Shown here piece by piece: positions 35,384-39,402 of a stretch of 39,402 bases of DNA (positions are counted from its first letter, which is position 1; each line of letters opens with the position of its first letter). The translations under genes and the position numbers were made by a program. Location of the stretch: positions 1-39,402 of the forward strand of contig JAFMFM010000015.1 of the NCBI GenBank assembly GCA_017856115.1. Reading direction: 5' to 3'. Below the pieces are notes generated by a model, which saw only the letters and a list, made by a program, of their open reading frames with translations, made no database searches and was not told where the DNA came from. This stretch comes from Actinomycetota bacterium (GTDB lineage: Bacteria; Actinomycetota; Acidimicrobiia; Acidimicrobiales; Ilumatobacteraceae).

Positions 35384-36784
35384 ATGACCAGCTTCGATCT
35401 CGACCTTTCCAAGTACTCCCTGGGATGGAGCGATGACGTCGAATATGCCTTCACCCCGGAGAAGGGCCTCAACGACCGGGTGGTGGAGCAGATCTCCTGG
35501 TGGAAGGGTGAGCCCGAGTGGATGCGCAAGATGCGGCTGCGTTCCCTCAATACGTTCGACAAGAAGCCGATGGCCGAGTGGTTCGCGGTGAACATGCCGG
35601 AACTCGACTTCCAGGACATCTACTACTACTTGAAGCCCGCCACCGAGCAGGTGAGCGAGTGGGACGACCTGCCCGAGCAAATGAAGGTCACCTACGAAAA
35701 ACTGGGCATCCCCGAGGCCGAGCGCAAGTATCTCGCCGGCGTTACGGCTCAGTACGAGAGCGAAGTGGTGTTCCACCGCAATCGCGAGGATCTCGAACAA
35801 CAGGGAATCCTGTTCTGCGACATGGACACCGCGCTCCGCGAATACCCGGACCTGGTGAAGCAGTATTTCGGCACGGTCATCACGCCGGGAGACAACAAGT
35901 TTTCCGCGCTCAACACTGCGGTGTGGTCGGGTGGATCGTTCATCTACGTTCCACCGGGCGTGGAATGTGAGATGCCGTTGCAGGCGTACTTCCGTATCAA
36001 CTCCGAGAACGCCGGTCAGTTCGAGCGCACGTTGATCATCGCCGACGAAGGCTCCAAGGTGCACTACATCGAGGGCTGCTCGGCACCCGTGTACACCAAC
36101 GATTCACTGCATTCCGCGGTGGTGGAAATCGTGGTGAAGCCGAGCGCGCACGTTACCTACACCACCATTCAAAACTGGTCGCCCAACGTGTACAACCTTG
36201 TCACCAAGCGTGCTCGAGTGGAGGCCGAGGGCCACATGGAGTGGATCGACGGCAACATCGGATCCAAACTCACCATGAAGTACCCGAGCGTGTATCTCGT
36301 CGGTCCAAAAGCCACGGGTGAAGTGTTGTCGGTTGCGTACGCGGGTGCGGGTCAGCACCAGGACGCCGGCGCAAAGATGGTGCACGCGGCGCCGGAAACG
36401 TCGTCGAAAATCGTTTCCAAGTCCATCAGCAAGGATGGTGGAATCACCACGTATCGCGGTTTGGTTCGCGTGGAGGAAGGTGCCACCGGTTGCAAGAGCC
36501 ATGTGCAGTGCGATGCGCTAATCCTCGATGAAGACTCCGAGAGTCGCACGCTGCCGTACATGGAAGTCGGTGAGCGTGACGCACAAATCGGTCATGAGGC
36601 CACCGTGTCGAAGATCGCGGATGAGCAGTTGTTTTATCTCACCAGTCGCGGACTCACCCCCGAGCAGGCCATGGGCATGGTGGTGAATGGCTTCATCGAG
36701 CCCGTCACCCGCACGCTGCCGATGGAATATGCCGTGGAGTGGAGCCGTCTGATCGAATTGCAGATGGAAGGTTCGGTGGGCTGA
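35384..36784 (+). CDS. sufB: Fe-S cluster assembly scaffold SufB
   Basis: A 466-residue SufB, the scaffold partner of SufC and SufD on which Fe-S clusters are built. The beta-helix core is complete, with [33 protein letters not shown], the [13 protein letters not shown] region and [11 protein letters not shown] near the C-terminus, which contain the conserved Cys and His implicated in cluster formation. Length is normal for the short SufB class. It is the first gene of the operon; no sufR-type regulator precedes it, and ychF is divergent. Confidence 0.97.
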
Positions 36785-36822: not shown

Positions 36823-37161
36823 ATGTCGATGCGCACCGATTGTCGCCACTTCGAGAGTCGCAGCTACAAGAACGGCGACACCGTCCGTGGCTGCAAGTTG
36901 GGTCTCGCTCCGGAGGCGCCATGGCGCTGTCCAACCGATTGCCCCAAGTTCGACCGTCGCGCTATGGACGTTGGCTGGACCCACGGCACGCTCGTGACCG
37001 GGGCAGCCCCGGAGGCGCCATCGAGTCTCGACGACGGCAGCGCCGCAGCCATTCTGAGCGAGGCCGAGTCGATCATCAATGCCATCGCGCCCGACGTGGT
37101 GAGCGAATTGGAGCGCGGCAAACCCAAGAAGTTCAAACGAAAAAAGAAGCGCAAGAAGTAG
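36823..37161 (+). CDS. Four-cysteine protein of unknown function in the suf operon
   Basis: A 112-residue protein I do not recognise as a named family. Cysteines 7, 24, 36 and 40 (pattern C-x16-C-x11-C-x3-C) lie in the first 45 residues together with conserved-looking aromatic and basic positions (CRHFESRSY, APWRCPTDCPKF). A flexible Ala/Ser/Asp region follows, then a helix (AAAILSEAESIINAI) and a strongly basic tail KKFKRKKKRKK. There is no signal peptide or membrane helix. It lies 38 nt after sufB and 5 nt before sufD on the same strand, so it is almost surely co-transcribed with Fe-S assembly genes. The cysteines could bind zinc or an Fe-S cluster. ATG at 36829 is an alternative start. Confidence 0.8.
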   Translation: MSMRTDCRHFESRSYKNGDTVRGCKLGLAPEAPWRCPTDCPKFDRRAMDVGWTHGTLVTGAAPEAPSSLDDGSAAAILSEAESIINAIAPDVVSELERGKPKKFKRKKKRKK

Positions 37162-37166
37162 ACATC

Positions 37167-38315
37167 GTGTCCGTGATTGCCGATCTCGTGCTGCCAACTG
37201 CTGAGCAGGAACTGTGGCGGTACAGCCGCATCGGCGAACTCGACCTCGGCGCGTACGCGGTTGGAGCCGCCGACACCACCGTGTCGGGTGATCAGTCGAT
37301 CATCTCGCGCGATATGCGGTTGACGCTCGACGACGTGTCGGCGGAGCCCGCCGACGTGTTCGAGCAACTGCACGCACGGCACACCTCATCCGATGGGCGG
37401 CACACCCCAGGCGGTTCCGCGCATGGCAGCACCGTGCGAATCGGCACGAGCCGCGGTCAGACAATCGCCGATCCGATTCTCATCACCCACAACGTGCGCG
37501 ACTCGAGTGTCGTGTGTTTTCCCTCGCTGGAAATCGACGCAGGGGAGAACAGTGAAGTCGTGGTGGTTGAGCGGTTCGTGTCGGACGACGATTGTCGTTC
37601 GCTCGTGGTGCCGATGGTGAAGATTCGTGCCGCACAATCGGCCCGCGTTACCTACGTTGCAATCAACGACTTGGGTATGAACACCTGGCTCATCGGCTAC
37701 CAGCGCGCACTCGGCGAACGAGATTCCACCGTCTCCACCTCCACCATCGCACTCGGTGGCGATTACGCCCGCACTCGTGCCGGGGTTCGACTTGTCGGTC
37801 AAGGTGCATCGGCAAAACAAGTCGCGCTGTATTTCGCCGACGGCACGCAAATGCACGACTTCCGCACGTTGCAGGACCACGCGGCTCCACGCACGCACAG
37901 CGATCTGTTGTTCAAGGGTGCGGTGAAGGACCACGCCAAGAGCGTGTACACGGGCCTCATCAAGATTCGTGACAACGCCGACAAGTCGGAGGCATTCCAG
38001 ACCAACCGCAACCTGACGCTCTCCAGTGGTTCATGGGCCGAAAGCGTGCCGAATCTGGAAATTGAAACCAACGATGTGAAGTGCAGTCACGCAAGTACCG
38101 TCGGACCCGTCGACGACGATCAGCGGTTCTACCTGGAAAGCCGGGGTATTCGTCCGGAGATCGCGGAGCGGTTGGTGGTGTTCGGATTCTTTGCCGATGT
38201 GATCAATCGCCTGCCGGCTGCTGCACAACCCGACGTATTGCGCGAAAAGGTGGGTCGCAAATTGCTGGGTGATGCCACCAGGGGTGCTACGCCCGAATCG
38301 GGGGTGCGAGCATGA
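37167..38315 (+). CDS. sufD: Fe-S cluster assembly protein SufD
   Basis: A 382-residue SufD, which pairs with SufB and SufC in the SufBC2D scaffold. The beta-helix core runs from about residue 90, and the C-terminal signature LEIETNDVKCSHASTVGPVDDDQ with its conserved His and the LESRGI segment are intact. The N-terminal region (1-90) is variable. The GTG at 37167 is chosen as the first start after the upstream gene's stop (37161); the frame is open further upstream but only inside that gene. The stop overlaps the Rieske gene start (ATGA). Confidence 0.94.
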   Translation: MSVIADLVLPTAEQELWRYSRIGELDLGAYAVGAADTTVSGDQSIISRDMRLTLDDVSAEPADVFEQLHARHTSSDGRHTPGGSAHGSTVRIGTSRGQTIADPILITHNVRDSSVVCFPSLEIDAGENSEVVVVERFVSDDDCRSLVVPMVKIRAAQSARVTYVAINDLGMNTWLIGYQRALGERDSTVSTSTIALGGDYARTRAGVRLVGQGASAKQVALYFADGTQMHDFRTLQDHAAPRTHSDLLFKGAVKDHAKSVYTGLIKIRDNADKSEAFQTNRNLTLSSGSWAESVPNLEIETNDVKCSHASTVGPVDDDQRFYLESRGIRPEIAERLVVFGFFADVINRLPAAAQPDVLREKVGRKLLGDATRGATPESGVRA

Positions 38316-38677
38316 CCATGCGTCGCGTTTGCTCGCTCGATGAGTTGGTCGATGGTGCCGCCGCAACGTTCGAGGTGGGCAAGCACATCGTGGCAGTGGT
38401 GCGAATCGGCGAACAGGTGTATGCCATCGGCGGCCGTTGCAGCCATGCCGATGTGGCGCTGGCCGACGGTGATGTCGATTGCGACACCAAGCAACTGTCG
38501 TGCATTCGCCATGGCAGTGCATTCAGTTTGGAAACCGGCGTACCAAGCACCCTTCCTGCCACGCAACCCGTACCCGTGTTCGTCGCCGAGGCTCGTGGCG
38601 ATGACGTGTTCGTATCCGACCAGCCCACCGTGAACACGCCCACCCCGAGTCCCCGCGTGAAGCGAGTCGAATCATGA
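38312..38677 (+). CDS. Rieske-type [2Fe-2S] ferredoxin
   Basis: A 121-residue soluble Rieske protein. Ligands are Cys43 and His45 (RCSHADV) and Cys64 and His67 (CIRHGSAF), spaced as C-x-H-x18-C-x2-H, as in bacterial dioxygenase-type ferredoxins. The C-terminal 25 residues are a Pro/Thr-rich tail. It is translationally coupled to sufD and to sufC by ATGA overlaps. Rieske ferredoxins occur between sufD and sufC in several actinobacteria; an electron-donor role in cluster assembly is assumed but unproven. Confidence 0.93.
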   Translation: MTMRRVCSLDELVDGAAATFEVGKHIVAVVRIGEQVYAIGGRCSHADVALADGDVDCDTKQLSCIRHGSAFSLETGVPSTLPATQPVPVFVAEARGDDVFVSDQPTVNTPTPSPRVKRVES

Positions 38678-39402
38678 CCGTGTTGTCCATTCGTGATCTT
38701 CACGCCAAGGCCGGAGACACACAGATTCTGAACGGCATCAACCTCACCGTTCGGGCCGGTGAAGTTCATGCCGTTATGGGCCCGAACGGCGCCGGCAAGT
38801 CCACCCTGTCCGCGGTCATCATGGGCAAACCCGGCTACACGGTGACGAAGGGGAGCATCATGCTGGACGACGTCGACATCGTGTCGCTGCCAACGTGGAA
38901 GCGTGCGCTCGCCGGGCTGCACTTGGTGATGCAGTATCCGACCGAGATTCCTGGTGTAGGCATCGACGACCTCCTCGATGAAGCCCTCGCCGAACGTGGG
39001 AGCGACCGATCGCGACTTGCCGCACAAATCGGTGCGGAAGCCGAGCGAATCGGGTTGAACGAATCCCTCATCCATCGCTCCGTGAACGTGGACTTCTCTG
39101 GTGGCGAGAAGAAGCGCAACGAAACGCTCCAACTCGCCATGCTCGACCCGCGCATCGTGGTGCTTGATGAACTGGACTCCGGCTTGGACATCGACGCATT
39201 GCGTGACTGTGCACGGCGCGTGGAAGACCTCACCAACGAACGTCAGTTGGGGGTGCTCGTCATCACGCACTACAGCCGGATCTTTGCCGACTTGAAACCC
39301 AACTTCGTGCACATTCTCGCAAAGGGCCGCATCGTTGCTAGCGGCGGACCCGAGTTGGCTGAACAACTCGAACGTGACGGTTACGACGCGTTCAACTCGT
39401 AG
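38674..39402 (+). CDS. sufC: Fe-S cluster assembly ATPase SufC
   Basis: A 242-residue ABC-type ATPase with Walker A GPNGAGKST (residues 35-43), signature FSGGEKKRNE (near 146), Walker B VLDELDSGLD (near 168) and the H-loop His in VITHYSR. SufC dimers drive shape changes of SufB/SufD during cluster assembly. The ATG overlaps the Rieske stop by 4 nt. The TAG ends exactly at the last base of the window, so any sufS, sufU or sufT genes lie beyond it. Confidence 0.97.
   Translation: MTVLSIRDLHAKAGDTQILNGINLTVRAGEVHAVMGPNGAGKSTLSAVIMGKPGYTVTKGSIMLDDVDIVSLPTWKRALAGLHLVMQYPTEIPGVGIDDLLDEALAERGSDRSRLAAQIGAEAERIGLNESLIHRSVNVDFSGGEKKRNETLQLAMLDPRIVVLDELDSGLDIDALRDCARRVEDLTNERQLGVLVITHYSRIFADLKPNFVHILAKGRIVASGGPELAEQLERDGYDAFNS

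Follow-up and report, generated by a model that had tools for sequence, protein, structure and literature searches.

A gene encoding a small protein with four invariant cysteines lies between sufB and sufD in the suf operon of the window (the whole stretch of DNA analysed, 39,402 nucleotides, which is an entire contig), and its linkage to suf genes is strong across the whole order Acidimicrobiales. The family is unnamed and was found here only in the class Acidimicrobiia; its four-Cys domain likely binds a metal. From the gene neighbourhood it is plausible, at a probability a little short of even, that the suf-linked form is a lineage-specific small metalloprotein serving as a SUF accessory in Acidimicrobiales.

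The four-Cys gene (P0001, positions 36823 to 37161, forward strand) has an ATG start and a TAG stop and encodes 112 aa. On the same strand it is preceded by sufB (35384 to 36784; TIGR01980, 705.6 bits) with a gap of 38 nt, and followed after 5 nt by sufD (37167 to 38315, GTG start; TIGR01981, 232.6 bits), a Rieske-type [2Fe-2S] ferredoxin gene (38312 to 38677; PF00355, E 1.3e-14) and sufC (38674 to 39402; TIGR01978, 279.5 bits), which extends to the contig end. The Rieske gene overlaps both sufD and sufC by 4 nt, which is consistent with one operon. These coordinates and neighbour profiles agree with a preliminary description of this DNA that had reported a 112-residue C-x16-C-x11-C-x3-C protein between sufB and sufD, 5 nt from the latter. 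The start codon at 36823 was accepted because it falls at a conserved M-x-M-R motif where the homologs begin; a 140-aa version from an upstream GTG was set aside, both on this account and because several homologs have a stop immediately before the motif. The Rieske-type gene between sufD and sufC is retained in most of the Acidimicrobiales suf loci examined.

The cysteines at residues 7, 24, 36 and 40 delimit a domain (codons 7-40, 36841 to 36942, forward strand; C7-x16-C24-x11-C36-P37-x2-C40) that is the core common to paralogs of 57-65 aa. All four were invariant in 94 of 94 distinct homologs, as were R13, A29-P30, A32-P33-W34 and P37, and invariance of C7, C24, P33, C36, P37 and C40 extended across 90 diverse homologs, short paralogs included. 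The x16/x11/x3 spacing was exact in 150 of 151 homologs, the exception (L150) carrying one additional residue in the first spacer. Comparison with ten congeners gave dN/dS values of 0.00-0.11, demonstrating that the four-Cys gene is under strong purifying selection; these low values, together with homologs in 95 of 100 related genomes and four Cys in every distinct homolog, show that it is not a chance ORF. The window protein and its homologs display the invariant ligands and fixed spacing by which a four-Cys metal-binding domain is recognized. Because four invariant, rigidly spaced Cys are held within a very small domain, there is a high probability that it binds metal, and the absence of a C-x2-C knuckle from the spacing makes it unlike an ordinary zinc ribbon. 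The candidate metal centre is likely Zn or Fe-S, between which the sequence does not discriminate.

An AlphaFold2 model built from 90 sequences (mean pLDDT 83.5, pTM 0.54; an earlier model had been poor, with pLDDT 64) predicted strands at residues 10-14 and 20-24 and an alpha helix at codons 73-99 (SAAAILSEAESIINAIAPDVVSELERG; 37039 to 37119, forward strand; alignment A4) with pLDDT of about 90. The basic C-terminal tail (RGKPKKFKRKKKRKK; 37114 to 37158, forward strand) is conserved in charge and not in sequence, the median net charge over the last 25 residues being +7 in 144 homologs. The helical segment and basic tail named in the preliminary description were thus recovered, the former as a prediction, and the invariance of the Cys, which it had proposed to check, was borne out.

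Searches of Pfam, NCBIfam and PDB sequences with the four-Cys protein gave no significant match, and comparison of the AlphaFold2 model with PDB folds returned none under E 1 in Foldseek and none at Z 2 or more in VIA-align. Zinc-finger matches in a PDB profile search (best E 0.13) covered only the CP-x-x-C stretch and were treated as chance, and tblastn of the consensus domain against plasmids and phages gave matches at chance level only. WhiB-like proteins of actinobacteria are small as well, with four Cys and a basic tail, but their cysteines follow C-xn-C-x2-C-x5-C rather than the x16, x11 and x3 found here, and no PF02467 match was obtained. SufT (DUF59) and SufU are also small accessory genes in suf operons, yet they have no sequence relation to the four-Cys protein. 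The C-terminal 42 positions of DUF5787 (PF19100, haloarchaea) align weakly to residues 2-44, with matches in 12 of 90 homologs (best E 0.042); however, this is a family of 278 positions compared with the 112 aa of the window protein, which scored 12.3-12.6 bits against a cut-off of 25 bits. As no described family was matched in the profile searches, the view that the protein could not be linked to a described Suf factor stands. Among the open-licence papers searched, none mentioned DUF5787, and none linked either the suf operon or iron-sulfur cluster assembly to Acidimicrobiia.

By profile search, 76 of the 148 Acidimicrobiia genomes examined carry the family; in a phylum-wide sample it was found in 24 of 296 genomes, all 24 within Acidimicrobiia and none in the sampled genomes of other classes. 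Homolog loci with named records belonged to Acidimicrobiia or to unplaced Actinomycetota, apart from two titled Bifidobacterium and Actinomyces, which are probably mislabelled MAGs. Three forms of the family were distinguished. Besides the window type there is another full-length one (VARFCVLD...); in some Acidimicrobiales families, such as f22, this second type is the copy linked to suf, and in some other orders it is an extra copy not linked to suf. The third form, of 57-65 aa, consists of the four-Cys domain alone.

Within Acidimicrobiales, sufB and/or sufD adjoin the gene in 54 of 55 informative loci on genome contigs. Both neighbours were present in 38 loci, sufB only in 8 and sufD only in 8, with neither in one, although these loci include close relatives, so that the sufB-only and sufD-only cases are not 16 independent events and the count overstates the evidence. 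Where only sufB was present, the gene lay 26-75 nt from it with no sufD within about 6 kb; where only sufD was present, the distance was 0-162 nt. When the suf operon is split, the gene remains with one half. Moreover, in family f22 it still lies inside the sufB-sufD interval despite the presence there of HpcH/HpaI lyase and MaoC genes (L215). Two other f22 loci (L208, L209) carry, near the suf operon and on the opposite strand, a second sufC-like gene and genes named by sequence reading as sufS-like and sufU-like.

The other orders of Acidimicrobiia present a different context, which argues against an obligate SUF role. There the homologs are located away from suf, and a 'suf' label outside Acidimicrobiales (L179) is probably false, stemming from an ABC-transporter match. 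Directly adjacent sufB and sufD genes occur without the four-Cys gene (L196, L197). SufB/SufD were found in 141 of 148 class genomes compared with 76 of 148 for the four-Cys gene; as many Acidimicrobiia have SufB/SufD without it, SUF does not require the four-Cys protein. The proposal of the preliminary description that the location implies a part in Fe-S assembly is therefore partly supported, the suf linkage being strong inside the order but not extending to the rest of the class; likewise, of its two expectations, that homologs keep the cysteines and that they stay with suf operons, the first was confirmed and the second broke down in other orders. On a phylogenetic tree, suf-linked copies grouped largely apart from rdgB-linked ones, with 5 changes of suf label versus 20.8 in shuffles, in a tree of few columns and many open forks that is uninformative on which location is older. 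In one locus of another order (L204:5921-9630), sufB occupies two frames, the second of which opens with a long insert resembling an intein or homing-endonuclease element.

The locations outside suf bear on the main alternative, rather unlikely albeit appreciable, namely that the protein is a general small zinc protein whose Lys/Arg tail contacts RNA or another polyanion, for instance in association with the ribosome or RNA processing, and that it merely rides in the Acidimicrobiales suf operon. Most homologs in the other orders follow RNase PH-rdgB; for 18 full-length copies the upstream genes include RNase PH-rdgB and/or the conserved protein encoded after these two, and nine Acidimicrobiales loci show the order sufB-gene-phoH-ybeY, with era further along in eight; the strongly basic tail of the 144 homologs would suit such a function as well. 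However, these neighbours are little informative, since both rph-rdgB and phoH-ybeY-era are housekeeping clusters that occur commonly; the distance to rdgB varies from about 60 to 5900 nt, and no RNA-binding family matched the four-Cys protein in profile searches. The conserved protein, which follows rdgB in many Acidimicrobiia, comprises 185 aa (VADLKDHAVEHGFHVHDERHFVESYS...), has no Pfam match and was observed at L160:7098-7658 and 18 other loci.

Regulation of the suf operon offers another explanation. SufR of M. tuberculosis (Rv1460 type) is a repressor that binds DNA with a winged-helix domain, and Cys 203, 216 and 244 serve as its three ligands (PMC6034842). Like SufR, the four-Cys gene is suf-linked and has several conserved Cys, but the 112-aa window protein lacks a winged helix and matched no SufR profile in Pfam or NCBIfam. 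Most Gram-positive bacteria depend on SUF alone; a review of SUF factors and auxiliary proteins calls the control of suf unknown for Gram-positive bacteria that lack SufR (PMC8593673). None of 16 Acidimicrobiales genomes encodes a SufR above the curated cut-off, which upholds the absence of SufR asserted in the preliminary description, and cotranscription would fit feedback control by an Fe-S or redox sensor that carries a cluster on the four Cys, places its basic tail on nucleic acid and controls suf instead of SufR. Such a sensor is nevertheless improbable, as profile searches matched no helix-turn-helix or other DNA-binding family, relatives in other orders are found away from suf, and each of the 16 genomes has an Rrf2-family regulator. 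The one in the window genome (Rrf2/IscR family; L216:7629-8075, contig 65), located away from suf and bearing a C-x5-C pair, is a candidate Fe-S regulator; its presence weakens the idea that any other Fe-S regulator is absent and, with the occurrence of Rrf2 in all 16 genomes, leaves a role as regulator by default not compelling. A broader version, in which the protein would be an undescribed dedicated SUF factor, either an Fe-S-binding sensor or an assembly partner, giving Acidimicrobiales, with no clear SufR, a feedback of their own, has an equally slim chance.

The four invariant Cys and the position beside sufB/sufD might also point to a dedicated carrier or scaffold to which SufBCD would pass Fe-S clusters. 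A-type carriers (PF01521) and Nfu (PF01106) are likewise small Cys-bearing proteins around Fe-S assembly, but the four-Cys protein matched neither profile, nor NifU_N, and both kinds of protein are encoded elsewhere in the same genomes. All 148 class genomes have Nfu-type domains and 138 have A-type carriers, whether the four-Cys gene is present or absent, and a stand-in for a missing A-type carrier or Nfu was rejected on these grounds. Four full ligands would moreover favour a stable site over a labile, transferable one, and a carrier function appears the least probable of these possibilities.

The SUF-accessory role in Acidimicrobiales is favoured by the suf linkage, the invariant and rigidly spaced Cys, the purifying selection and the largely separate grouping of suf-linked copies on the tree. 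The beta hairpin of the N-terminal domain and the loop APEAPWRCPxxC would build one metal centre (Zn or Fe-S) on the four Cys, the C-terminal helix and basic tail may dock the protein onto a partner, either SufB/SufD or an acidic surface, and the docked protein would tune cluster assembly or delivery on the SufBCD scaffold; it is the gene neighbourhood that suggests the SUF partnership and the docking. Against this reading stand the short paralogs, which possess the Cys domain but neither helix nor tail, and the lack of a function-giving structural match among the PDB folds compared. As an order-wide neighbour of sufB/sufD with four invariant Cys and no family name, the protein is a cheap target for distinguishing Zn from Fe-S; if it were unrelated to SUF, the gene would still define a widespread, unnamed and putatively metal-binding family of Acidimicrobiia. 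Finally, the paralogs of 57-65 aa (six loci, L154-L159) are located near genes for NIL-domain, chlorite-dismutase-family (HemQ-like), ThiI-like and pyridine-nucleotide disulfide reductase proteins, neighbours that hint at sulfur, heme or redox metabolism.
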